Shown piece by piece: positions 12,929 to 58,575 of a DNA stretch of 64,000 nucleotides (the stretch's first letter is position 1; every line of letters begins with the position of its first letter). The notes beneath the pieces are model-generated. The model saw nothing but the letters and a program-made list of their open reading frames with translations, had not been told where the DNA came from and searched no databases. The DNA comes from Alphaproteobacteria bacterium (GTDB lineage: Bacteria > Pseudomonadota > Alphaproteobacteria > Micavibrionales > Micavibrionaceae). The translations under genes and the position numbers were made by a program. The stretch lies in assembly GCA_017999645.1 (NCBI GenBank), contig JAGNLJ010000001.1, forward strand, positions 124,001 through 188,000, in the 5' to 3' direction.

Positions 12929-12936
12929 TCTCAATT

Positions 12937-13052
12937 ATCGTCTTTTGGGCTGCAAATGCCGGTTTTCTGCGCTTCCGTTTCTCAAATACCACAACGTATT
13001 CTGCGATACGGTTCTCGAAAACCGGCATTTTCGCCACAAAATCCTTCAATTG
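12937..13052. repeat. 116-bp palindromic repeat, copy 1
   Basis: This 116-bp sequence recurs near 48.3 kb with no gaps and about nine mismatches by eye. Its ends form the perfect inverted repeat ATGCCGGTTTTC/GAAAACCGGCAT, and an inner hairpin AATAC/GTATT lies in the middle. On the minus strand it reads through without a stop, with peptide FVAKMPVFEN...IAEYV and EKRKRRKPA. It lies 8 bp behind the stop of the lipoprotein gene. Confidence 0.85.
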
Positions 13053-20834: not shown

Positions 20835-20944
20835 CGTCATTGCGAGCCCCCGCCTACGCGGGGGTAAACTTCGCGAAGCAATCCATATCTCCGTTTGAAC
20901 AAAAAATGGATTGCTTCGTCGGCAAGTGCCTCCTCGCAATGACG
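20835..20944. repeat. CGTCATTGCGAG palindromic element, copy 1
   Basis: This 110-bp element has terminal inverted repeats CGTCATTGCGAG and CTCGCAATGACG and inner arms CGAAGCAATCCAT/ATGGATTGCTTCG. It carries a CCCCCGC-CTAC-GCGGGGG hairpin. It lies between the convergent receiver-protein and folE genes. Confidence 0.85.
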
Positions 20945-23077: not shown

Positions 23078-23151
23078 ATGGACCCCCGCCTTCGCGGGGG
23101 TGACGATTTTTTATGAATGGATTGCTTCGTCACCGCGCTCCTCGCAATGAC
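23078..23151. repeat. Palindromic element, copy 2 (half element plus GC hairpin)
   Basis: GGACCCCCGCCTTCGCGGGGGTGACG contains a 7-bp CCCCCGC/GCGGGGG stem; it is followed by ATGGATTGCTTCG and CTCGCAATGAC, the right half of the 110-bp element. The hairpin with the following TTTTTT may also serve as the cysS terminator. Confidence 0.75.
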
Positions 23152-23156
23152 AGCGG

Positions 23157-28693: not shown

Positions 28694-29665
28694 TTACTGC
28701 ACCGTCAACAGCGGGCCGTTATTCGCGGGCGGCGGCGTTTGTGAAGCGGGCGCGGGCGCGGTGTTGCTTTTGATTTCAGGGCTTTTCTTTTCCGTGCCGG
28801 GATAGAAGATGCCGCGCACCTGGCCGCCGGTTTTCGCCATATTGGCGCCGCCGAAAAGCTGGCTGGTGTTGGTGTTGAGATCGACTTCGGCGCGCTCGCC
28901 CTCGAGCTTGTTGGGGCCGCGGTGGAGAATGACACCGCCGGTGAGCAGGGCCTTGTTGGTCTGCGCATTATAGATGCCGTGCTTGCCGGTGACTTTTTCG
29001 GCGGGCGTGGTGATGACGACATTGCCGTCGGCCTCGAGTGAGTGGAGTTCGCGTTTGCCAGCCGCATTGTCTTTCAGGATAGCAGAGATGACATCGGCCT
29101 CGAGCGTGTCGGTTTCGCCTTTGGCGTTTTTCTTGTCGACGCGGGCGTTGCCGATGGCGTTGATTTTGCCGTCGGTAACCCAGTATTCGAAACGCTCTTT
29201 CGCAGTCACGATCTGGTTCGGCGAAACCATTTTCAGATTGTCGCCGGTCATGATGGCAACACCCTTGGCGAGGTCGTAATCGGCGCGCTGGCCGTAGGCG
29301 ATGGAATCTTTCGAGCTGAGCTCGACATTTGAATCGGCTTCGACGCGGTGGATGTCCATGCCGCCGCCAGTTCCATCGCGGTAATGCGCGGTGAGTTTTG
29401 CGGCCGCGATGGAGGATTCACCCTGTTTGGCTTTGGCGTTATCACGCGCGATGAAAAGTTTTTCATTGCGGTTCCATTCGAGCGAACCGTCGGCAGTGAT
29501 TTCGACGGGTTCATCGCTGGAGGAACTTAATTCCTGTGCGGATGCGGGGATAGCCGTCATTGCGAGCGTCAGCGAAGCTATCCAGAAAAGAATGGATTGC
29601 TTTCCCCGCTTTCGCGAGGACAGGCTCGCATTCGCTCCTCGCAATGACGAGAGGATTTTTGTCAT
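28694..29665 (-). CDS. lptA: LPS transport periplasmic protein
   Basis: LptA forms the periplasmic bridge that carries LPS to the outer membrane. Residues about 50-290 form the OstA-like beta-jellyroll (VEITADGSLEWNRNEKLFIA, ARDNAKAKQG); the end is Pro/Ala-rich. At 323 residues it is much longer than E. coli LptA (185). The start overlaps the lptC stop (ATGA), which fixes it at 29665. From that start, residues about 6-37 are encoded by a copy of the CGTCATTGCGAG palindromic repeat, which supplies the basic part (RKRGK) and hydrophobic core (ILFWIASLTLAM) of the signal peptide; cleavage is likely after ASA (residue 43). Confidence 0.9.
   Translation of the reverse strand: MTKILSSLRGANASLSSRKRGKQSILFWIASLTLAMTAIPASAQELSSSSDEPVEITADGSLEWNRNEKLFIARDNAKAKQGESSIAAAKLTAHYRDGTGGGMDIHRVEADSNVELSSKDSIAYGQRADYDLAKGVAIMTGDNLKMVSPNQIVTAKERFEYWVTDGKINAIGNARVDKKNAKGETDTLEADVISAILKDNAAGKRELHSLEADGNVVITTPAEKVTGKHGIYNAQTNKALLTGGVILHRGPNKLEGERAEVDLNTNTSQLFGGANMAKTGGQVRGIFYPGTEKKSPEIKSNTAPAPASQTPPPANNGPLLTVQ
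29555..29649. repeat. CGTCATTGCGAG palindromic element, copy 3, inside lptA
   Basis: This 95-bp copy runs from CGTCATTGCGAG to CTCGCAATGACG. It lies wholly inside the 5' end of lptA and is read in frame. The inner TCCAG...TGGATTGCTT arms are partly kept. The other copies seen are intergenic, apart from copy 5. Confidence 0.85.
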
Positions 29666-30357
29666 GGTATGAACTCCTTTGGCCCGCCGGATGTGTTGGT
29701 GAGTATGAGTTTTGCCGGGCCGTTGAAAACGAGGTTGCCGGTTTCGGATGAACCTTCGAGGCCCTTCGCCGCCAGTGTGCCGTCGGGGCCGTGGCCCGCG
29801 ATATCGACTTTCGAGGACGCAGTGTTCTGCATCATATCGACATCGAGTTCTTCCATCTCGAGCTGGTAGCCCTTGTCGTGGTTGAGCTGGACCTTGCCCC
29901 GGAGGAGCAGGATTTTGCTGTCCTGGCGGAAGCTGCCGCGATCGGCGCGGACGGCGATTTTTTCGCCGCTGCTCAGCGTCATGTCACCGAGCGGTTCATC
30001 CAGCATGACGAGTTGCTCGTCGCTTTTATTCTGCACGGCGCGCTTGGCGGTGATGGTGAAGGGCTGGTTTTTTTCATCGACGCTTTCGAAGCGTGGGTTG
30101 ACCAGTTCATTCTGGCCGACATTGGTGGGCATCTTGGCGGCGTCGATGGAAGGCAGAATGTTGTTGCGCTGGACGTCGCTCCAGACGAAGACGATGGCAA
30201 AAAGCGCGAGCGCGATGACGGGCAGGATGAGGCGCATGCGGCGCACGAAGCGCGACCATTTCGGATTATGCGTGTCGCGGGTGGATGCGCCGCGCACGAG
30301 GCGGTCGTACTTACCGGCGCTTAAAGTGTTTTCCGGGTTTTCAGGGTCTATCGTCAT
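29662..30357 (-). CDS. lptC: LPS export inner-membrane bitopic protein
   Basis: LptC accepts LPS from LptB2FG and passes it to LptA. One N-terminal membrane helix (LILPVIALALFAIVFVW, about residues 43-60) is followed by a periplasmic OstA-like domain (VNPRFESVDEKNQPFTITAK, MLDEPLGDMTLSSGEKIAV). It has 231 residues. The 40-residue cytoplasmic head is longer than in E. coli. It sits 10 bp after kdsD and overlaps lptA by 4 bp. Confidence 0.92.
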   Translation of the reverse strand: MTIDPENPENTLSAGKYDRLVRGASTRDTHNPKWSRFVRRMRLILPVIALALFAIVFVWSDVQRNNILPSIDAAKMPTNVGQNELVNPRFESVDEKNQPFTITAKRAVQNKSDEQLVMLDEPLGDMTLSSGEKIAVRADRGSFRQDSKILLLRGKVQLNHDKGYQLEMEELDVDMMQNTASSKVDIAGHGPDGTLAAKGLEGSSETGNLVFNGPAKLILTNTSGGPKEFIP

Positions 30358-35927: not shown

Positions 35928-36029
35928 CGTCATCGCGAGCCGACATCGTCGGCGCGGCGATCCAGTTTTTTCTGGATTGCTTCCCCCGCTTTCGTGGGGG
36001 CAAGCTTGCGCATGCTCCTCGCAATGACG
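35928..36029. repeat. CGTCATTGCGAG palindromic element, copy 4
   Basis: This 102-bp copy runs from CGTCATCGCGAG (one mismatch) to CTCGCAATGACG and has the inner ATCCAG/CTGGAT arms and a CCCCCGC-TTTC-GTGGGGG hairpin. It is intergenic, between the Wzc-like gene and a small unknown gene. Confidence 0.85.
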
Positions 36030-42800: not shown

Positions 42801-43246
42801 ATCTCTTTTTTCTCCCAGGATTTTTCGCCCTGCTGCCAGTAGGTGAGGGCGTGGCCGGAGTCTTTGTATGATTGCCAGTGCGCACGGGCCTGCGCGATTT
42901 GCGATTCATCGCGGCCATCCAGCAGTTCGCAGCAGAGTTTGAAATTGCCGATATCGTCGGCGCTGGTTCCGTTTGTGAGAATGAGAACGTCGGCACCGTT
43001 CGGATTGTCATTCGATGAAGTAAGATAGACAGGCTGCAATGCTGCGTGGCCGTCTTTTTTCGTGCCGTGCGGCAGGAAGATGTTGGTGTTGTAAATCCAG
43101 AGATGTTCGGCGAGACGCTCGGCCTCGGCTTCATCATTCGTTTTAACGAGAATTTTGTGGCCGTTTTCGAGGGCCTTCGTGAGGAGGCCGGGCAGGACCT
43201 GCTCGAGCGACTGGCGTTCCATGTGATAGAAGCGCACCTCTGTCAT
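42797..43246 (-). CDS. holC: DNA polymerase III subunit chi
   Basis: HolC links the clamp loader to single-strand binding protein at the replication fork. The 149-residue protein shows RFYHMERQSLEQVLPGLLTK, LVKTNDEAEAERLAEHLWIY, FLPHG and VLILTNGTSADDIGNFKLC, the conserved core of the family. The ATG overlaps the end of the aminomutase-family gene by 4 bp. In other Alphaproteobacteria holC follows pepA; here one gene lies between. Confidence 0.92.
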   Translation of the reverse strand: MTEVRFYHMERQSLEQVLPGLLTKALENGHKILVKTNDEAEAERLAEHLWIYNTNIFLPHGTKKDGHAALQPVYLTSSNDNPNGADVLILTNGTSADDIGNFKLCCELLDGRDESQIAQARAHWQSYKDSGHALTYWQQGEKSWEKKEI

Positions 43247-44346
43247 TTCGCATTTCCCTGCGGCGGGTAGTGATGTTTGAAGCCTTCGAAATCTTCGACG
43301 ATATATTCGTTTTCTTTTTCCTCGACAATGTAATCGCGCGTGACGGGCACCTTGCCGTGGCCGCCGGGGATGTCGAGCATGTAATGCGGCTGACAAATTC
43401 CTGATACGCGGCCCAGTAATTTTTTGACGATTGCCTTGCCCTCTTTTAACGAGAGGCGGAAATGCGATGTGCCGGGCGCGAGGTCGGGGTGGTGGAGATA
43501 ATAGGGTTTGACGCGCAGCGCCGCGAGTTTGCGGAAGAGGTCTTCCAGAATATGCGGGTTGTCGTTGACGCCCTTGAGCAGCACGGATTGCGAGAGCAGG
43601 ACGCAGCCCGCTTCGTGGAGTTTTTTGAGTGCGGCTTCGACTTCCGGCGTGATTTCCTGCGCGTGGTTGATATGCACGGCAATGTAAATAGCCTTCTCGC
43701 GTTTCAGCGCGGCGCAGAGTTCATCGGTGATGCGTTTCGGGTCGGCGGCGGGAATGCGCGTGTGAATACGGATGACTTTGACGTGATCAATCGCGCAGAG
43801 TTCGTCGAGCGTTTCGGATAACTGGCGGGCCGAGAGAACGAGCGGGTCGCCGCCGGTTAAAATAACTTCCCAGACGTTCTTGTTTTCGCGGATATAGGCG
43901 AAGGCGTTTTGTTTTTCTTCGGCGTTCAGAATGTCCGATCCGGGGCCGACCATTTCGCGGCGGAAACAGTAGCGGCAATAAACCGCGCAGACATTCGCGA
44001 GCTTCAAGAGGAGGCGGTCAGGGTAGCGGTGGACGAGGCCTTTTACGGGTGTGTGCGCGTAATCGCCGATCGGATCCGGGTTTTCTTCGGGCGTGGTTTT
44101 CAGTTCCTCGATTTGCGGGATGTATTGTTTTGCAACCGCGTCGATAGCGACAGAGCCCTGCATGGTTTCCAGCACATGCGGTGTAACAGCAATGGCGTAT
44201 TTTTCGCCGACTTTTTGAATAACTTCAGATTTCTGAAATTTCGTCATTGCGAGGAGGCCTTCAGGCCGACGAAGCAATCCAGCAATTTTTCTGGATTGCT
44301 TCGCTCCCGCAGGTCGCTCGCAATGACGTGATTTTAAATCGCTCAT
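43243..44346 (-). CDS. Radical-SAM lysine 2,3-aminomutase family protein (EpmB/KamA-like)
   Basis: The family moves the amino group of lysine; EpmB makes beta-lysine for elongation factor P. The radical-SAM site CxxxCxxC is in NVCAVYCRYCFRREM; ILTGGDPLVL and the PLP-region YYLHHPDLAPGTSHFR follow. The ATG at 44346 overlaps the pepA stop (ATGA), so it is the coupled start; residues about 7-35 are encoded by a copy of the palindromic repeat. An internal ATG at 44247 (MTKFQKSEV) would avoid most of it. No efp or epmA is in the window, so EpmB and KamA cannot be told apart. 367 residues from the upper start. Confidence 0.88.
   Translation of the reverse strand: MSDLKSRHCERPAGAKQSRKIAGLLRRPEGLLAMTKFQKSEVIQKVGEKYAIAVTPHVLETMQGSVAIDAVAKQYIPQIEELKTTPEENPDPIGDYAHTPVKGLVHRYPDRLLLKLANVCAVYCRYCFRREMVGPGSDILNAEEKQNAFAYIRENKNVWEVILTGGDPLVLSARQLSETLDELCAIDHVKVIRIHTRIPAADPKRITDELCAALKREKAIYIAVHINHAQEITPEVEAALKKLHEAGCVLLSQSVLLKGVNDNPHILEDLFRKLAALRVKPYYLHHPDLAPGTSHFRLSLKEGKAIVKKLLGRVSGICQPHYMLDIPGGHGKVPVTRDYIVEEKENEYIVEDFEGFKHHYPPQGNAK
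44242..44328. repeat. CGTCATTGCGAG palindromic element, copy 5, inside the aminomutase-family gene
   Basis: This copy is 87 bp, exactly 29 codons, from CGTCATTGCGAG to CTCGCAATGACG, with GCAATCCAG/CTGGATTGC inner arms. It lies between codon 6 and the start of the normal protein core and keeps the reading frame. It is read in a different frame from copy 3. Confidence 0.85.
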
Positions 44347-48286: not shown

Positions 48287-48292
48287 CCAATC

Positions 48293-48408
48293 ATCGTCTT
48301 TTGGGCTGCAGATGCCGGTTTTCTGCGCTTCCGCTTCTCAAATACCGCAACGTATTCTGCGATGCTGTTCTCAAAAACCGGCATTTTCGCCACAAAATAC
48401 TTCAATTG
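48293..48408. repeat. 116-bp palindromic repeat, copy 2
   Basis: The same length as the copy near 12.9 kb, without gaps. End arms ATGCCGGTTTT/AAAACCGGCAT and the inner AATAC/GTATT hairpin are kept. It is placed 6 bp behind the lptG stop. The minus-strand reading FVAKMPVFENSIAEYV is open as in copy 1. Confidence 0.85.
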
Positions 48409-50179: not shown

Positions 50180-52900
50180 TTAGCTTCCGGTGCCCATAAG
50201 CGCGGCAAGTTTGCTCGCGTCTTTGGTGAAGCCGAGGCCGATATTTCCGCCTTTGAAGACTTTATCGATGAGCTGGCCGGCGGGGTCGCCCGCAGCTTCG
50301 CTGAAGGTCGAGACCGAGACGCCCATCCAGCGCAGGATGTTATTCGGCACCTGGTCGATCAGCTTGAAGAAACCGGTCGCCATCATATACACCATGATCG
50401 CATACATCATCGTGAAGAAAAATTTATCGACCGGCAGGCGGTAAAATTCAATCGAAGACGGGCCGAGGCCTTTGAATTCGGCCTCCATGTCGTAGCCCGA
50501 GACGTTTGAAACGACGAGGTCGAATACATCGTTCAGCACGCGTACGCTGGCGGCAAAAATTGTCAGACTGGCGACAAGGCCGAATACGATCAAAATCGGC
50601 CGCAGGAAAATTTCAAGCAGAAGGAAATAGCCATTGTTGGCTGCGGGACCGGGCATGCCCTGGCCGTCCATGCGGCTGATATGCGCGAGCGCCCAGAGTG
50701 GCATCGCCACAACTGCTTCGAAGATGCTTTTGACCCAGCCGCTCAGGGCGAACATGAAGTAAATGAACGGCAGGAACGGCAGCACGTAATAAAGAATAAA
50801 GCTTATGACCATCGTGAATTTTCCGATCTCTACGGCCATGTCGATGAGAGCCTTTAATGTCTGTTCATCGCCGCCCACGGCCTTGCCGAATATGGCAACG
50901 AGAGAGGTTCCGACCAGGCCACTGCCTATATTACGGACGGATGCATCCATCAGGCCTTTTCCGAGAACGCTGAGCTGCGCGAGGGGGTGGATATTTGTGT
51001 TTTCCCGCATGGCGAAGACACCCTCGGTGCCGAAAATCATATTGACGACGTCGTTGAACGTGTTGCCCGACGTTCCGCTCTGCAGTTTCGAGGCGTTGCC
51101 GCTTTTATCCCAGAACGTATAGGCGTTGTAGAGAACAGCGGCGATCATTTTATCCTTGTAGCGCGGGTAGTCTGATTCTTTTCTGCCGCCGAGTGCGGGA
51201 TCGAATAAATCTTCGGGGCTAATATTTTCATTCGTCGCTTTATTCTGTTGCCCGATATGCTCCATCAGGAAAGGGTATTTGTCGGCGAAGGGGATATTTC
51301 CGATTGCCGCGGTTATCTGGCCGTTTTGCTGCGCGATGCGGTTGTACCATATGGCGGCGCCTCCCCAACCCATTGCGCGCAACTCGGGCGTGACGGCAAA
51401 ATTGGTTGAAGCGGCTTCCTGCGCGACCGCGGCGGGAATCTGATTTTTAACGAAATTGGTCCATCTCTGGATTTCGTTATTGGCGAAATTGGTTGTCGGC
51501 CAGGCGTTGCAGTTCGGATCATGGTCGATCTGCATAATGCGTCCGCGCACGCATGCGGCATTGACGCTGCCTTGCGCGTCATCCCACATGGCCCTGACCA
51601 GTTCGTAATAAACTTCCTGCATGATCCAGGCGCCTGAAGTGGGATCGTTCGACGTTACAGGCAGGTTGACGACACCGCACACGGCTTTAACGTTGCCTTT
51701 ATCAAGCGGGTATCGTGCTTCGTTGAAGACACCGAAGCGGATTTCGATGTTACCGGCGTCGTTGAAATCAAGGGCGCCGGCAAAATCCACCGTGTCCAGG
51801 GGCAGGACGTTCGGGCCGGGCAGATTTGCGCCGGTCAGCGCATCGCGTACCAAATAACCCTGAACTCCATCGGGCGCGTGAAGCGTTTCGCCATAGGCGA
51901 ATTCCTCGGCGATCTTGCAGGTTTTCGCGACGAACATGAAACGCACAAGTGCGTTGATTTCGGGTGCGTTCGGCGTGGCGATAAGGTTTTCCTGCGGGCC
52001 AAGATAGGTTTCAACGAGGGACAAATTAAAGTGACCCCACGCATTAGTCGCGAAGTTCGATCCGAATTTCGCCGTCCAGAATGTGAGCATCTGGGCGGTG
52101 TTCATGCCGTAATGGTCGTCGTCGATATTGACCGGGATGAGAAGCGCAAAAAAGATAATCAGGCGGACGGGCCCCCATGTCCTGTTGAACCGCTGGCCGA
52201 AGGGCGTGCCGTTCACGGCGGTTTCGCCGATGATCGTCGTGACGAAATAAAGGATGACGATAACACCCACCATGAATATGCCGATGGAGTAATAATGAAA
52301 CAGCGTATGCAGAGCCCTGTGCATTGGCCAGGGGTAGGGGCCGCCAATGTTACCGATCTGCTGACCGTTCAGGCCCATGCAAGGGATCTGCAACGAAATG
52401 CAGGAGCCGTAAATGCGTGAGCCGAGGCCGAATACGCGATCAAGAATTATAAAGGCGATATCCTGTTCGCCATTTCCGAGGTTACCTCCATGGCCGAAAA
52501 TCGATTCTACGCCGAGAATATTATTGAGCGTGATGTCGGCAGGTGCGATGCCGGCCATGGCGGCAGGCGCCAGGACCGCCATAACAAGAAGGATGACCTG
52601 CAGCATCAGCATGATGGCGCCCGCAAGGATCGCGAAAAAAACGATGATCTGGTCGATGTTGCGCCGGGCGAAGACGAGATTGTTGGCGGCTTCGGCGATG
52701 ACGTGCCTCATGCCGTACCGGCCAATGTTGGCCGGATTCAAATAGGGGTGGCCATCGGGCAGCAGGCGAACAGAGTGATAGACGATTGCTATCATGTAGG
52801 CGACATGCATGAAGCCGGTGGCAAAAAACGCATGCAGCCGCGGCAGAAAGCCCGGCAGGAGCGTGTATTTTAGTACCTTTCCGGTGCTGAGCGTTGCCAT
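50180..52900 (-). CDS. DotA/TraY-like polytopic membrane protein, third of three
   Basis: DotA and TraY are inner-membrane channel-like components of type IVB secretion and IncI conjugation. The 906-residue protein has the family layout: helices near the N-terminus, HPYLNPANIGRYGMRHVI near residue 51, GTPFGQRFNRTWGPVR near 233, a large periplasmic region with GWGGAAIWYN near 511 and HPLAQL near 638, and a C-terminal bundle with MPLWALAHI near 737. It starts right at the stop of the gene before it (TAAATG). The actual substrate and system are unknown. Confidence 0.75.
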   Translation of the reverse strand: MATLSTGKVLKYTLLPGFLPRLHAFFATGFMHVAYMIAIVYHSVRLLPDGHPYLNPANIGRYGMRHVIAEAANNLVFARRNIDQIIVFFAILAGAIMLMLQVILLVMAVLAPAAMAGIAPADITLNNILGVESIFGHGGNLGNGEQDIAFIILDRVFGLGSRIYGSCISLQIPCMGLNGQQIGNIGGPYPWPMHRALHTLFHYYSIGIFMVGVIVILYFVTTIIGETAVNGTPFGQRFNRTWGPVRLIIFFALLIPVNIDDDHYGMNTAQMLTFWTAKFGSNFATNAWGHFNLSLVETYLGPQENLIATPNAPEINALVRFMFVAKTCKIAEEFAYGETLHAPDGVQGYLVRDALTGANLPGPNVLPLDTVDFAGALDFNDAGNIEIRFGVFNEARYPLDKGNVKAVCGVVNLPVTSNDPTSGAWIMQEVYYELVRAMWDDAQGSVNAACVRGRIMQIDHDPNCNAWPTTNFANNEIQRWTNFVKNQIPAAVAQEAASTNFAVTPELRAMGWGGAAIWYNRIAQQNGQITAAIGNIPFADKYPFLMEHIGQQNKATNENISPEDLFDPALGGRKESDYPRYKDKMIAAVLYNAYTFWDKSGNASKLQSGTSGNTFNDVVNMIFGTEGVFAMRENTNIHPLAQLSVLGKGLMDASVRNIGSGLVGTSLVAIFGKAVGGDEQTLKALIDMAVEIGKFTMVISFILYYVLPFLPFIYFMFALSGWVKSIFEAVVAMPLWALAHISRMDGQGMPGPAANNGYFLLLEIFLRPILIVFGLVASLTIFAASVRVLNDVFDLVVSNVSGYDMEAEFKGLGPSSIEFYRLPVDKFFFTMMYAIMVYMMATGFFKLIDQVPNNILRWMGVSVSTFSEAAGDPAGQLIDKVFKGGNIGLGFTKDASKLAALMGTGS

Positions 52901-55708
52901 TTATCCACCGCCGCCGCCGCCGCCGCCTCTGGCCATTTTTTCGGTTATATCTTTCATCTGGCCACCGATAGCTCCCGTTGCCTGGCCCGCGCCGACGGTG
53001 GTTGTGCTGACGAGGCTTTCAGCTGCATTCTCGCGGGCGTCGTTTTCGGTCGCGACGCTCTGGCCCATCCAGCGCAGGATGTTTGCCGGAATCAGGTCGA
53101 TGAGCTTGAATGACGAGAGGGCCATCATGTAGACGATGATCGCGTAAATCGCGGTGAAGAAAAGTTCGTCGACGGCCGAGCGGAAATACTGGCCCATTGA
53201 AGCGCCGATGCCCTTCGCTTCGCTGGGGACGTCGAAGCCCGACAGGTTGGAAACCACCAGATCCCATGTCTGGTTCAGGGCGAAGACCATTGCAGCGAAG
53301 ATCGAGATGCTAGCCAACAGTCCGAAGATGATCAGGATAGGTCGCAGGAATATTTCGAAAATGAGGAAGTAGCCGTTTACCGCGGCCGCGCCCGCCAGTC
53401 CGTTGCCGTCGATGCGGATGTGCGCGAGCGCCCAGAGCGGCGCACCGATCATGGCTTCGAAAATTGCCTTCAGCCAGCCGCCGACCGCGAAGAAGAAATA
53501 AATGAAGGGCAGGAAAGGCACGATGTAATAAAGGACGAAGCCCATCGTCAGGATGCCCATGCTGATTGAAATCAGGAACTTGGTGAGCGCGGCGGCGCCT
53601 GCGCGGCTGTTGTTGTCAAGCGCGGGCATGATAACCATACCGCCCCCCGCGAGGAAAAGATCGAGCGCAGCGCTTTCGACGAGCGATCGTCCAACACCAA
53701 CCAGTTGTGCAAGCGGGTGGATATCCGGGTTTTTGCGCATGCTGTAGAGGCCGCCGGTGCCGAAAAGTGCGTTGATTGTGTCCATGACGATGTTGCCGGT
53801 GGGTTCGGTATGCGATGTTGTCGCGAAGCCGCCGCGCTGCCAGTAGTTATAGGATTCCCACATCGCCGACGCAAAAGGAAGCGTGTAAGGTTCGCGCTCC
53901 TTAACAGGCACGCCATTGGCCAGCTGCGGATTGAAGCGTTCGGCTACAGGCACACTCTGGTCGCCCTGGCGTTTTTTCTCGTACACATATTCCATGATGC
54001 TCGGCCAGCGCGATACCGACGGGATGGCGCCGACCGCTTCAGTCAGCGAGCCGTTGATCTCTGCGACCTTGTTGTACCACATGCCTGCACCGGCCCAACC
54101 TTTGGCAAGGAGCTGCGGCGTGATCAGCCATGTTGCGGATTCAATTTGGGCGCGCACGGCGCCGCCGCCGCCGCCCAGCACACCGCCCAGACCGTTTCCG
54201 CCGCTGGTCAGCGCCGCTTCAACGTCGCCCCGATAAAAGTCCTGTATGGCGCTTCGGAAAGTATCGGGGGGCGGCACGAGGTCGTCTCTACTCGGCGGGC
54301 AGTCGCCGCCGAGGCGTTGACACGGGGTATGTTTGAGCGCGGTGTAAGACGCGTAATTATAAGGCGTCAGGAATGTACCGGTATAAACCGATTGCCAGAG
54401 TTCCTGGACGATGTAAATGTAATAACGCTGCATCATCTCGGTGCCGGGTTCCGCCAGGCCGGGCATGCGCGGATCGCTTATCGGGATAATGAGTTCGCCG
54501 CAGATTGGCGATACATAACCTTTGTTGAGCGTGGTTCTGTCGATGACGCCAAAGCGGATAACGAGATCCTGATCGCCGCGAAGAAAAGTCATGACGTCAT
54601 TATAACTTGCCTGCGTGCCGCCACCAGGCGGGCCGCCGGGCAATCCAGGCCAGTCGGCGAAGAGAAGGTTGGGCGGATTGCTGAGCGGATCGCGGACGGC
54701 ATAGGCGCGGATGTGTCTTCGTTCCTCTGCGGGTCTCAGCCACTCAAGCCACGCGCAAACCGAAGCGGAATACATGAACTGCAAAACACCGTGAATTTCA
54801 GGAACGTTCGGCGTCGAAACCAGGTTCCTGGTCTGGCCGATATAGCTTTCGGTAAGGCCCTGGTTGAAAAGAATCCAGCCGTTGGTGGCAAAAGCCGAAC
54901 CGAACTTCGCAGCGTAGAGAACGATATATTGCGACGAGTTGAGGCCGTAGCCGATCGGGATCAGGAGGCCGAAAGCGACAACAATACGTATGGGAGCCCA
55001 GAGCTTGTTGAAGCGTTTGCCGAAAGGCGTGCCGCTTTGCGCTGTTTCCATCACGATGGTGCTGATGAAGTAGCAGGTGATCAGCGTGGCAACGACCAGC
55101 AAGCCGATGCTGTAAAGGCGGAACATTTCATGCAGGGCGTCGTGAATGGCGTAAGGCCAGCTTGGCTGGACGAAAACCGACTGGCCGGCCATATCGAGGA
55201 TTCCACCGCCATAGTTATCAAGGCATGTTCCCTGCGCATTCACGCAGGAATTGAAAAGATCCGGCACGCCGAAGACAAGATCGAGCATGATATGGGCTAT
55301 ATCCTGACCGGGATTTGGCGTGACAAAAAATCCGGCGAAATTGGTCGGCATAGCCGCGCCCGCCAGCACGGGCTGGAACATAAGAGACGTGCCTAGCAGA
55401 AGAACCTGGAGGAAAATAAGAATTATGCCCACAAGCACCGCGCCGAACATGATAACCTGGTCCGCGTTTTTGGTTTTGAGTACGAGGTGATTGGCGGCTT
55501 CGGCGATGACGTGGCGGATTCCAAAGCGCCCTATATTTGCCGAGTCGAGATAAGGGTGCCCGGCGGGGAGCAGCCGCACCGTGCTGTAGACAAGAGCGAT
55601 GAAAAACGGGATATACTGGAAGCCCGAGAAAAAAAGATCCTGCAGCCGGGGACGAAGACCCGGCAGAACCGCATATCGGACAAATTGTTTTTTCGTTACA
55701 TTCAACAT
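52901..55708 (-). CDS. DotA/TraY-like polytopic membrane protein, second of three
   Basis: A 935-residue paralogue of its two neighbours. It shares HPYLDSANIGRFGIRHVI near the N-terminus, GTPFGKRFNKLWAPIR near 229, AKFGSAFATNGWILFN, GWAGAGMWYN near 537, HPLAQL near 664 and APLWALAHI near 759. The periplasmic loop between about 300 and 530 is the most divergent part and is Gly/Pro-rich. The protein ends in eight glycines encoded by CCG/CCA repeats on the plus strand. It follows the first gene by 23 bp. Confidence 0.75.
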   Translation of the reverse strand: MLNVTKKQFVRYAVLPGLRPRLQDLFFSGFQYIPFFIALVYSTVRLLPAGHPYLDSANIGRFGIRHVIAEAANHLVLKTKNADQVIMFGAVLVGIILIFLQVLLLGTSLMFQPVLAGAAMPTNFAGFFVTPNPGQDIAHIMLDLVFGVPDLFNSCVNAQGTCLDNYGGGILDMAGQSVFVQPSWPYAIHDALHEMFRLYSIGLLVVATLITCYFISTIVMETAQSGTPFGKRFNKLWAPIRIVVAFGLLIPIGYGLNSSQYIVLYAAKFGSAFATNGWILFNQGLTESYIGQTRNLVSTPNVPEIHGVLQFMYSASVCAWLEWLRPAEERRHIRAYAVRDPLSNPPNLLFADWPGLPGGPPGGGTQASYNDVMTFLRGDQDLVIRFGVIDRTTLNKGYVSPICGELIIPISDPRMPGLAEPGTEMMQRYYIYIVQELWQSVYTGTFLTPYNYASYTALKHTPCQRLGGDCPPSRDDLVPPPDTFRSAIQDFYRGDVEAALTSGGNGLGGVLGGGGGAVRAQIESATWLITPQLLAKGWAGAGMWYNKVAEINGSLTEAVGAIPSVSRWPSIMEYVYEKKRQGDQSVPVAERFNPQLANGVPVKEREPYTLPFASAMWESYNYWQRGGFATTSHTEPTGNIVMDTINALFGTGGLYSMRKNPDIHPLAQLVGVGRSLVESAALDLFLAGGGMVIMPALDNNSRAGAAALTKFLISISMGILTMGFVLYYIVPFLPFIYFFFAVGGWLKAIFEAMIGAPLWALAHIRIDGNGLAGAAAVNGYFLIFEIFLRPILIIFGLLASISIFAAMVFALNQTWDLVVSNLSGFDVPSEAKGIGASMGQYFRSAVDELFFTAIYAIIVYMMALSSFKLIDLIPANILRWMGQSVATENDARENAAESLVSTTTVGAGQATGAIGGQMKDITEKMARGGGGGGGG

Positions 55709-55731
55709 CAGTAAGCCTGTTTATAAATCCT

Positions 55732-58575
55732 TTATGGCCCCGGCGTGCCGTCACCCTGTACTCTTTGCCTGAGCGAAACCATCGCTTTTTCGAGATCGCC
55801 ACCAAAGCCGGCGGCAACATCGCGGAGGCCGGTTGTCGTTGTCTGCGCCATCTGATAGCCGCCGTAAGCCGCATATTTGGTGAGGCCTTCGGTCGGGTCG
55901 GCGTTGATATCGGAGAAGGCCGATACGCCCGCGCCCATATAGCGCAGAATTTGGTCAGGGATTTTATCAATCATTTTGAACGAAGCCGTCGCCATCATGT
56001 AGACGATGATCGCATAAACGACGGTATAGAAAAACTCGTCGATCTTGTTCTGCGGCAGAACCTTGTAAATATAGCCGGGGTAATTGACCTTTTGCTGCGC
56101 GCCCGGGCCGGTTTCCGTCCAACCTTCGAAGCCTGTGAGGCTGCTGGTGACGAGTTCCCACAGAACGTTCAGCATGCGCACCTGCGCTGTGAAAATAAGG
56201 ACGGCTGCGACCAGGCCGAACACCGTCAAAATCGGACGGACAAAAATTTCAAAAATCAGGAAATATCCGCTCGATGCGGAATCGCCGGGAAGCCCTTCGC
56301 CGTCGATGCGCAGGTGCGCCAGCGCCCAGAGCGGCGCGCCGACCATCGCTTCGAAAATGCTCTTGATCCATGTTCCGAACGCGAAGAAGAAATACAGGAA
56401 CGGCAGGAACGGTAAAACATAGAAGAGAATGAAACCAATGGTCATCGCCAGCATCGCGATCGTCATCATCATGCCGCTGGCGTAACCGGCCAGCGGACCC
56501 GTGTGGCTGTCCATCAGGCGCAAAAGACCGCCCGCGCCTGCCGTGATCGTGGAGCCACCGATATTGATGATGGCACTGTCGACCAGCGATTTGCCTACAG
56601 CTGCGAGCTGGGCGAGCGGGTGGATGTGGGCGTTGTCGCCACGCATTTCCATGAGGCCGCTCATGCCGAAAATCGCGCCGATGACGTCATTGATGACCGA
56701 GCTGCTCACGGTTTTGCTGGCCTTCTCCATGTCGGGATCGTCTTTGTTCCACCAGTTGAAGAAGTCGTTCATCAGCTTTGCAACTTCCAGGCAGTTCGTG
56801 GGGCAGGCGAGCGTCACAGGTCTGCCTTCCGCGAGGTTGGGGTTAAACTGCATTTTGCTGGAGAGATCGGCGTCCGCTTTTTTCCGCTCCCTGCGGGTTT
56901 GGTCCATCACGTCGGGATAGGTTTCAAAGTAAGGCATGCTGACGATGGATGTAGAGAAAACGCCGTTGATCTCGGCGATCTTGTTGTACCAGATTCCGGC
57001 GCCCGCCCAGCCGCGATCGAGAATATCGAGCCGCATCTGGATATCCTGGTTGTTGGTGTTGTAGACCATCCATGCCCAGTCTATTTCGGCTTCGTACTGA
57101 GGCTTGTAGACGCCAAGCAAAGTCTGACGGCCCTGGGCAGTGACTTGCGTATCATTGCAGGTTATCGGCCCTACAGCGCAAATGGGAAGCGATCCATGCC
57201 CGCACCCGATGGCGCATTGCAGGTGAGGCTCCCTGTTGATCGCGAATTCCATGTAACGGTGCGCGAGATCGACCATGAGCGTGCCGTCCGTGAACCACAT
57301 GGCCTTGACCAGGTTGAAATAAAACTCCTGAATCATGTCGGCGCCGCCCGGCATTGGGGGGCCGTTAGTCGGTCTTATATAGGTGATCGGAATACGGATA
57401 TCGCCGCAATATTTTCCGACCTGGCCTTTTTCCTTGTCGTAGCTGGTGTTATTGGGGTCGTAACGGCCGAAGCGGATGACGATGTCACTGTTGTTGTAGA
57501 AATTCAGCGCGGCTTCATAGCTCGTTCCGGCCTGAAGCTCCATTCGCGGCAAAGGATTCGGCATCCAGTCCTGCGGCTGTTTGACGAGATAAGGCCTGAT
57601 ATAAAAACCTCCTGACGGCGGCGGGGCGCCCTGATAGTTTGGATCTAGCTTCCAGTGTGCATAGGCGCAGGCGTGAACGAGGGACATGGCCTGGATGATC
57701 GGCATCAAACTTGGCGGGCTCGGTTTTGCGAGAAGACTTTCGCGCTCACCCGTCGGGTTGAAGCCAGCACCCATTCCAGCCTGCAGCGTGTCGTTGAACT
57801 GAATCCAGCCGTTGGTTGCAAAACCGGAGCCGAACTTCGCGGCGTAGAGCACGATGTACTGTCCGCTGTTGAGGCCATAGTTGATCGGCAACAGAAGACC
57901 GAGCGCAACGACAAGGCGGACGGGCACCCATGCGTTCTGAAAGCGCTGGCCGAAGGGATGACCGGTGGTGGCGGTCTCGCCGACGACAATCAGCACGTAG
58001 TACAGGAAGATGACGACGCCGACGATGAGCAGGCCGAGAGAATAGAATCTCAGCAACTCATGGAAGGCTGTGTGGAACGGCCACGGTAATTGGCCGTTGA
58101 TCGGTGGGCAGGCGCCAGCTTCCGTGCAGAAAAGATCTGGAATTCCGAAAACCTGGTCGAGCACGACGAAGGCCATATCGGTGACGGGGCCGCCACTGGG
58201 CGGATTCTGCGTGAGGAATATCGAGCCTGCGAAAGCGGGCTGGATTATGAAGATGTATATGATCATAACGAGCTGAATGAGCAGGATGATCACACCAGCC
58301 AGCAGTGCAAAGAAAATGAAAACCTGGTCGGCGTTTTGTTTTCTGAGCACCAGATTGTTGGCAGCTTCGCCGATGGCGTGACGGATTCCGAAGCGGCCGA
58401 TATTGGATGGATTGAGGTAAGGGTGATTGGGCGGCAGAAGGCGCACGGCGCCGTAAATGGTGGCCATCAAAAACGCGATATAGCCGAAACCGGACGCGAA
58501 AAGTGCCTTGGCACGCGGAATGATCCGCGGCAGCAACAAGATGCCAAGAACTGTCTTCGCTTTAACGCCGTTCAC
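55732..58575 (-). CDS. DotA/TraY-like polytopic membrane protein, first of three
   Basis: The first gene of the triplet, 947 residues. HPYLNPSNIGRFGIRHAI near residue 51, GHPFGQRFQNAWVPVR near 206, GWAGAGIWYN near 522, HPLAQL near 650 and APLWALAHL near 747 define the shared frame. A cysteine-rich part lies in the periplasmic loop (AIGCGHGSLPICAVGPITC). About eight membrane helices are visible. No dotB, dotC, icmE or other partner gene is adjacent, so a full secretion apparatus would have to be encoded elsewhere. Confidence 0.75.
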   Translation of the reverse strand: MNGVKAKTVLGILLLPRIIPRAKALFASGFGYIAFLMATIYGAVRLLPPNHPYLNPSNIGRFGIRHAIGEAANNLVLRKQNADQVFIFFALLAGVIILLIQLVMIIYIFIIQPAFAGSIFLTQNPPSGGPVTDMAFVVLDQVFGIPDLFCTEAGACPPINGQLPWPFHTAFHELLRFYSLGLLIVGVVIFLYYVLIVVGETATTGHPFGQRFQNAWVPVRLVVALGLLLPINYGLNSGQYIVLYAAKFGSGFATNGWIQFNDTLQAGMGAGFNPTGERESLLAKPSPPSLMPIIQAMSLVHACAYAHWKLDPNYQGAPPPSGGFYIRPYLVKQPQDWMPNPLPRMELQAGTSYEAALNFYNNSDIVIRFGRYDPNNTSYDKEKGQVGKYCGDIRIPITYIRPTNGPPMPGGADMIQEFYFNLVKAMWFTDGTLMVDLAHRYMEFAINREPHLQCAIGCGHGSLPICAVGPITCNDTQVTAQGRQTLLGVYKPQYEAEIDWAWMVYNTNNQDIQMRLDILDRGWAGAGIWYNKIAEINGVFSTSIVSMPYFETYPDVMDQTRRERKKADADLSSKMQFNPNLAEGRPVTLACPTNCLEVAKLMNDFFNWWNKDDPDMEKASKTVSSSVINDVIGAIFGMSGLMEMRGDNAHIHPLAQLAAVGKSLVDSAIINIGGSTITAGAGGLLRLMDSHTGPLAGYASGMMMTIAMLAMTIGFILFYVLPFLPFLYFFFAFGTWIKSIFEAMVGAPLWALAHLRIDGEGLPGDSASSGYFLIFEIFVRPILTVFGLVAAVLIFTAQVRMLNVLWELVTSSLTGFEGWTETGPGAQQKVNYPGYIYKVLPQNKIDEFFYTVVYAIIVYMMATASFKMIDKIPDQILRYMGAGVSAFSDINADPTEGLTKYAAYGGYQMAQTTTTGLRDVAAGFGGDLEKAMVSLRQRVQGDGTPGP

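Follow-up and report, generated by a model that had tools for sequence, protein, structure and literature searches.

Does a mobile palindromic repeat serve as the export signal of LptA? This question arises from a 64,000-nt stretch of DNA (the whole stretch analysed, hereafter the window) from a Micavibrio-like alphaproteobacterium, in which the initial annotation proposed such a recruitment. The nearest named genomes are likewise Micavibrio-like and not those of Rickettsia. Based on our comparisons with other genomes, it is very probable that the export signal of LptA takes both its charged stretch and its hydrophobic core from a REP in lptA. Sec export, cleavage after A43, and replacement (rather than mere lengthening) of an ordinary signal by the insertion are inferred, without SignalP or protein data. 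The features concerned are as follows.

28694-29665, minus strand: lptA, 323 aa (Pfam PF03968, E 3.8e-15, residues 55-157), with a predicted REP-encoded signal peptide
29662-30357, minus strand: lptC (Pfam PF06835), the TGA of which overlaps the lptA ATG
29674-29680, minus strand: Shine-Dalgarno sequence AAAGGAG, within lptC and 8 nt upstream of the lptA ATG
29555-29649, minus strand: 95-bp CGTC-tagged REP head-to-head dimer, in frame at lptA codons 6-37, with perfect 12-bp terminal inverted repeats
29537-29665, minus strand: signal peptide M1-A43, predicted cleavage ASA|Q after codon 43 (from sequence and from hydropathy compared with LptA orthologues and cytosolic proteins)
29600-29614, minus strand: basic stretch RKRGK, residues 18-22, translated from the inner hairpin of the element
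29558-29593, minus strand: hydrophobic core ILFWIASLTLAM, residues 25-36, in the 3' half of the element; peak 12-residue mean hydropathy 2.19

The operon order is kpsF/kdsD-lptC-lptA-lptB, in which LptB and KpsF are NCBIfam matches, and downstream of the operon is an ORF that we take to be rpoN from its own sequence. The lptA ATG overlaps the lptC stop codon as ATGA and is the earliest in-frame ATG, GTG, or TTG. Together with the Shine-Dalgarno sequence, this agrees with the earlier proposal that the overlap sets the lptA start. Two congeners (G001 and G002) were compared with this assembly (G000), and in G001 the sequence GAAGGAG is found at the equivalent position.

The reading frame, start, and fusion of the repeat with lptA can be read directly from the sequence. 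The element starts 12 nt past the lptC stop, its 12-bp ends (CGTCATTGCGAG/CTCGCAATGACG) match perfectly, and it encodes residues 6-37 as SSLRGANASLSSRKRGKQSILFWIASLTLAMT, in agreement with the extent of approximately residues 6-37 first attributed to it. The N-terminus of LptA is chimeric: the flanks code for MTKIL and AIPASA|Q, and the REP codes for RKRGK and ILFWIASLTLAM. The coding of RKRGK comes from an extra inner hairpin in the lptA copy, not from the conserved ends. The CGTC-1 family is characterised by an 8-bp stem and a 4-nt loop, and the left unit of the lptA copy is expanded and contains this extra hairpin. The sequence criteria for a Sec/SPI signal are met, with a basic n-region (RKRGK), a core within 7-15 residues (ILFWIASLTLAM), and small residues at -3 and -1 (ASA|Q). 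The n-region is unusually long, with ~23 residues here and more than 40 in G001. The peak 12-residue hydropathy is 2.19 for the REP-encoded core and 1.95 for G001, compared to 2.05-3.48 for LptA orthologues and 0.48-0.86 for cytosolic N-termini. Translation confirms that the repeat codes for the basic stretch and the core and that the predicted cleavage site lies just outside it. The broader proposal that a mobile repeat was recruited to export LptA stands for these two parts, which are signal-like in hydropathy, but not for the whole signal, since the start and the cleavage site are host-encoded; export itself is inferred.

The initial annotation also placed the element at four other sites in the window, which we found to be three dimers and one solitary half.

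20835-20944, no strand assigned: REP dimer of the same family as the lptA copy, found by dimer extraction
35928-36029, no strand assigned: intergenic REP dimer of the same family, with indel differences in G002 and G001
44242-44328, no strand assigned: REP dimer that forms codons 7-35, in frame, of the gene for a KamA/EpmB-like radical SAM enzyme (43243-44346, minus strand)
23141-23152: solitary REP half, a match to the 12-mer end

The KamA/EpmB-like enzyme (NCBIfam TIGR03822) has its REP 14 nt past the upstream stop and no signal peptide after it. The window has nine matches to the 12-mer end with at most one mismatch, compared to 0.71 expected in shuffles, and the 2.06-Mb assembly has 77 exact copies, compared to none for a reversed control pattern. 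From the regions around 77, 45, and 50 exact end matches in G000, G002, and G001, respectively, we extracted ~100 head-to-head dimers. These dimers are mosaics, in which the ends and the CGAAGCAATCCA..TGGATTGCTTCG inner arms are constant and the inner hairpins are variable. A CGTC (often TGTC) tag is present at the ends of the lptA element and of most of these dimers. The coding strand of the lptA element has the form CGTC-ATTGC..GCAAT-CCA, with a paired-AT stem and a CCA tail, and most copies are alike. By tag, stem, tail, and head-to-head dimer form, the lptA element is assigned to the CGTC-tagged REP superfamily.

A 121-bp palindromic element, the inverted arms of which are long but imperfect, also occurs twice in the window (12932-13052 and 48288-48408; 93% identical) and is unrelated to the REPs. 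Diverged copies of a ~2.8-kb unit were found at 50675-57957 (blocks 70-84% identical) and are probably tandem paralogous genes.

In G002, lptA encodes an identical signal peptide with two synonymous substitutions. In G001, the 3' half of the repeat is kept (FFWIASLALAMTAISAHA|Q) and a second palindrome has taken the place of the middle, with the frame kept. This second family (AACCACAG..CTGTGGTT) has tens of matches in G001, where it lies at about 20 places besides the in-frame position inside the lptA REP, and has no matches in G000 or G002. The LptA proteins of other genera (at most 63% identity) are without the repeat and have ordinary short signals, such as VNRFILLLIAVILCAAPVCAQ. Because all three species carry the repeat and the other genera do not, the insertion most simply predates the split of these three species. 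The recruitment proposal would have been refuted by element-free relatives having the same signal sequence, and this was not the case in these genera.

Use of such a repeat as a signal peptide was initially thought to be uncommon, which did not hold: lptA is one of many cases in this bacterial family. We found REP-derived N-termini ahead of a hydrophobic core in nine or more unrelated genes for exported proteins or lipoproteins (eight or more besides lptA), with the following cases.

EnvC-like M23 gene (G000 and G001): REP signal MKHETSLRAKRGNPGVFRLLLDCFVAMLLAMTVILPAHA|E
LptE-like lipoprotein: ..FLAMTIVGFSLFSLTAC; the LptE name is from a sub-threshold Pfam match (20 vs 23 bits)
Two further lipoproteins with a REP N-terminus: ..LAMTMMVSLLALTGC and ..LAMTMGLLLLAGC
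Lcl-domain protein with a REP N-terminus: FFWIASLLLAMTVMIIKPARA|E; no upstream gene
FliP with an in-frame REP (G000): MKKPLF[KVIARKPKADEAIQFFSGLLRSRCSLAMT]IILSLVFISSPALA|QTVNLDLG
Lipoprotein of G027 with a REP N-terminus: MSMWIASLTLAMTALIFLSAC
Gene after hisS, REP-derived signal: G062, G065, G067, G036, G064, G119, and apparently G013
Gene after hisS, signals from other CGTC-type palindromes (..PAFAGMA/..PAFAGVT/..PACAGVT): G107, G118, and G023

The M23, LptE-like, FliP, and Lcl-domain cases and the two further lipoproteins are from G000, G001, and G002, and those of the gene after hisS are from other genera. The gene that we take to be hisS was named from its own sequence, and the gene after it has no Pfam match. 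The repeat-peptide searches used a 31-aa query in 104 family genomes and a 19-aa version in 142 order genomes. The events are fewer than the rows because a single old insertion may underlie all five g35 cases, and a conservative count is ~14 events. A 24-aa query of the repeat plus cleavage site gave no clear extra case outside the order among 385 class genomes, where only the closest loci were considered and detection with such a short query is weak. Nearly all signal cases use the ..LAMT frame (or GMA, GMT, or GVT in the same phase), directly before or within the core. The insertions in BioA and TrpS use the hydrophilic RND frame, and the third frame contains TGA. The same internal site of bioA has REP dimers with different inner sequences in G002 (L166, codons 347-370) and G001 (L182, codons 348-376), both in the RND frame. 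Apparent N-terminal repeats before genes that are presumably argH (L125 and L153) and thiL-like (L170), as judged from their N-terminal sequences, were set aside as upstream sequence.

Two of these genes provide natural before/after pairs in close relatives. The FliP signal of G002 is MKKPLFRFFLALLPLIALLPGAAWA|QTVNLDLG, without a repeat, and in FliP of G001 another palindrome occupies approximately this codon position (..RMPAFAGMTMALFFLLSSPALA|QTVNLDLG); the mature proteins are 97-99% identical among the three genomes. For the M23 gene, G000 and G001 carry the repeat and G002 has MQRYLLLFLATAAFLPQPVMA|EPSL, with mature proteins that are 92-98% identical. Because near-identical mature proteins carry or lack the repeat, these signals appear to be interchangeable. 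For both proteins, G000 is nearer to G002 than to G001, such that G002 probably once had the repeat-bearing M23 signal and then lost it or exchanged it for another. Separately, one stretch with two REPs (L120/L140; G000:C20:44080-47280 and G002:C6:67020-70220) is 99.9-100% identical, compared to ~92% elsewhere, which may reflect either a recent transfer or an assembly issue.

The recurrence of these cases is accompanied by a preferred placement, both evident from comparison of the genome sequences. We found that 67 of the 99 REP dimers are at most 20 nt past a stop codon that faces the dimer. At a limit of 30 nt the number is 68, and nearly all of these stop-proximal dimers are at 0-17 nt; the distances rest on gene calls made roughly, by codon usage. 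For the majority of the signal-peptide cases, the start codon is overlapped or directly preceded by the upstream stop, and from this stop to the repeat there are 1-17 nt, which places the repeat at codon ~2-8. The usual landing zone of the REPs thus coincides with signal-peptide codons in these cases. We counted eight N-terminal insertions in the three genomes, and seven of them lie ahead of a hydrophobic core or make it up; only that in the KamA/EpmB-like enzyme does not. The probability of this outcome is 0.0013 if 30% of genes carry signals and 0.0085 if 40% do, although this background is assumed and the genes were picked by eye. A combination of stop-proximal placement, an overlapping next gene, and a signal peptide that tolerates inserts (at codon ~5-8) likely explains these cases.

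For lptA, we propose that a CGTC-tagged REP dimer inserted 12 nt past the lptC stop, which is the usual landing zone of these elements and, because the lptA start overlaps this stop, would fall within the lptA signal-peptide codons. The insertion would have been in frame, in the orientation-independent frame ending CTC GCA ATG ACG (L-A-M-T) that is open and hydrophobic. Ribosomes would initiate at the original ATGA start and translate the repeat as residues 6-37. These residues may provide a long n-region, made basic by RKRGK, and with ILFWIASLTLAM the hydrophobic core; signal peptidase I would then cleave at the retained original c-region AIPASA|Q.

We detected no purifying selection on the REP-coded peptide (pooled pN/pS 0.95 over REP-coded codons). 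The lptA repeat is 98% conserved between G000 and G002, and its substitutions are unexceptional beside those of orthologous intergenic repeats, which also have few; most of these differ by indels and several are without indels. Synonymous change in REP codons compared to the host gene is 3/21 vs 0.64 in the M23 gene, 4/29 vs 0.64 in the post-hisS gene, and 2/27 vs 0.26 in lptA. Because synonymous sites in the REPs also change little, it cannot be concluded from the low divergence of the lptA copy that the peptide is under selection, and the synonymous divergence far below that of host genes indicates that the REP DNA or RNA is constrained or homogenised. The lptA element also forms a strong RNA hairpin (-45 kcal/mol, z -4.45), so an additional RNA role is not excluded. 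Whether the repeat is kept mainly as a hairpin at the lptC/lptA junction, acting in mRNA stability or translation control with the signal coding as a tolerated by-product, is doubtful in our view. The strong hairpins (z -4.45 to -5.63), the low synonymous change noted above, the recurrence of several palindrome types at the same gene junctions, and the general location of REPs just past stop codons would all be consistent with it, but the repeat is missing at G002 fliP, at G002 M23, and in lptA of all other genera examined. Moreover, intergenic copies are also low in divergence, and gene conversion could explain this. The two roles of the lptA REP, as hairpin and as signal peptide, are not exclusive.

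If the repeat only lengthened the n-region and the original h-region still worked, the insertion would be neutral decoration. This fits the LptE-like protein, a lipoprotein, and FliP, in which the host cores (IVGFSLFSLTAC, MMVSLLALTGC, and IILSLVFISSPALA, respectively) come after the repeat. It is improbable for lptA, in which the core is repeat-encoded and the AIPASA that remains after the repeat has neither the length nor the hydrophobicity of a core; the repeat also supplies most of the core in the M23 gene (..LLAMTVILPAHA) and the post-hisS gene of G062 (..FWIASLTLAMTLFIFPSYA).

A start elsewhere would also have undone the initial annotation, and the possibility that the repeat is an untranslated leader, with lptA starting at the ATG in its conserved 3' end (GCA ATG ACG), has some appeal from the warning that most N-terminal REPs may be extragenic owing to misannotation (Di Nocera, De Gregorio and Rocco, 2013; PMC3733652), but is hardly credible here: this ATG has no Shine-Dalgarno ahead of it while AAAGGAG precedes the ATGA start, its product MTAIPASAQ.. 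is without the core (peak 12-residue hydropathy 0.39) and incompatible with a periplasmic LptA, and the upstream start and frame are kept in three species, one of them with a nested second insertion.

Our preferred reading therefore remains that the lptA repeat is translated as part of the signal. More tentatively, REPs in this bacterial family may represent a standing supply of signal peptides. Such signals would repeatedly be acquired, give way to other REP types, and disappear, with modules swapped while mature proteins stay constant and some copies being dual-purpose (RNA hairpin and signal). These patterns bear on the origin and turnover of signal peptides. Stop-proximal insertion, overlapping genes, and a tolerant target also add up to a rule, which can be tested, on the conversion of selfish repeats into working parts of proteins.

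The intercistronic REP of E. coli malE-malF lies just past a stop codon within an operon and is an untranslated spacer. The lptA copy is also just after an operon stop, but is translated since the next gene overlaps the stop. The CGTC-tagged REPs described previously share with ours the tag, AT-starting stems, CCA tails, a predominance of head-to-head dimers, a location just 3' of ORFs, within ~20 bp, and some intragenic copies, and Micavibrio aeruginosavorus is listed as a CGTC-1 host (PMC3733652). In contrast, signal peptides are unmentioned there, and many N-terminal cases are deemed likely misannotation; in the present cases, the start, the operon overlap, and congeners with empty and filled sites favour real coding. 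Automatic start-site correction at such "misannotated" N-terminal REPs would wrongly remove real signals, such as that of LptA.

The comparison with rickettsial palindromic elements made in the initial annotation is apt in that CGTC-1 and CGTC-4 of Rickettsia conorii have been equated with RPE-6 and RPE-4 (PMC3733652), which places the lptA element in the same superfamily, but it is a REP of a Micavibrio-like host and not rickettsial as such. As far as Ogata (2000) is reported in PMC2229807 and PMC3733652, RPE-1, RPE-4, and RPE-6 are likewise palindromes in frame within conserved proteins. They belong to another alphaproteobacterial lineage and, according to these secondary accounts, are spread throughout proteins, whereas the present insertions cluster in signal codons and have one preferred frame.

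In the literature searched, we found no report of CGTC-tagged REPs as signal peptides, the nearest being Delihas (2007). It was already known that palindromes can code for protein (Rickettsia), and a signal peptide derived from a repeat had been predicted in one case (Yersinia; PMC2759123); the repeated occurrence in conserved export genes, the rule on the frame, the explanation by stop overlap, and the repeat-bearing and repeat-free signals in close relatives were not found in that literature and appear to be new. The Yersinia example is YPAL/RU-2 in YPO1552, a predicted signal peptide of a putative exported protein (Delihas, 2007; PMC2759123). This is a weaker precedent, as it concerns a single putative exported protein and an unrelated element, whereas the REPs described here have entered conserved core genes in many independent events, and both a rule on the frame and a mechanism of placement can be given for them.
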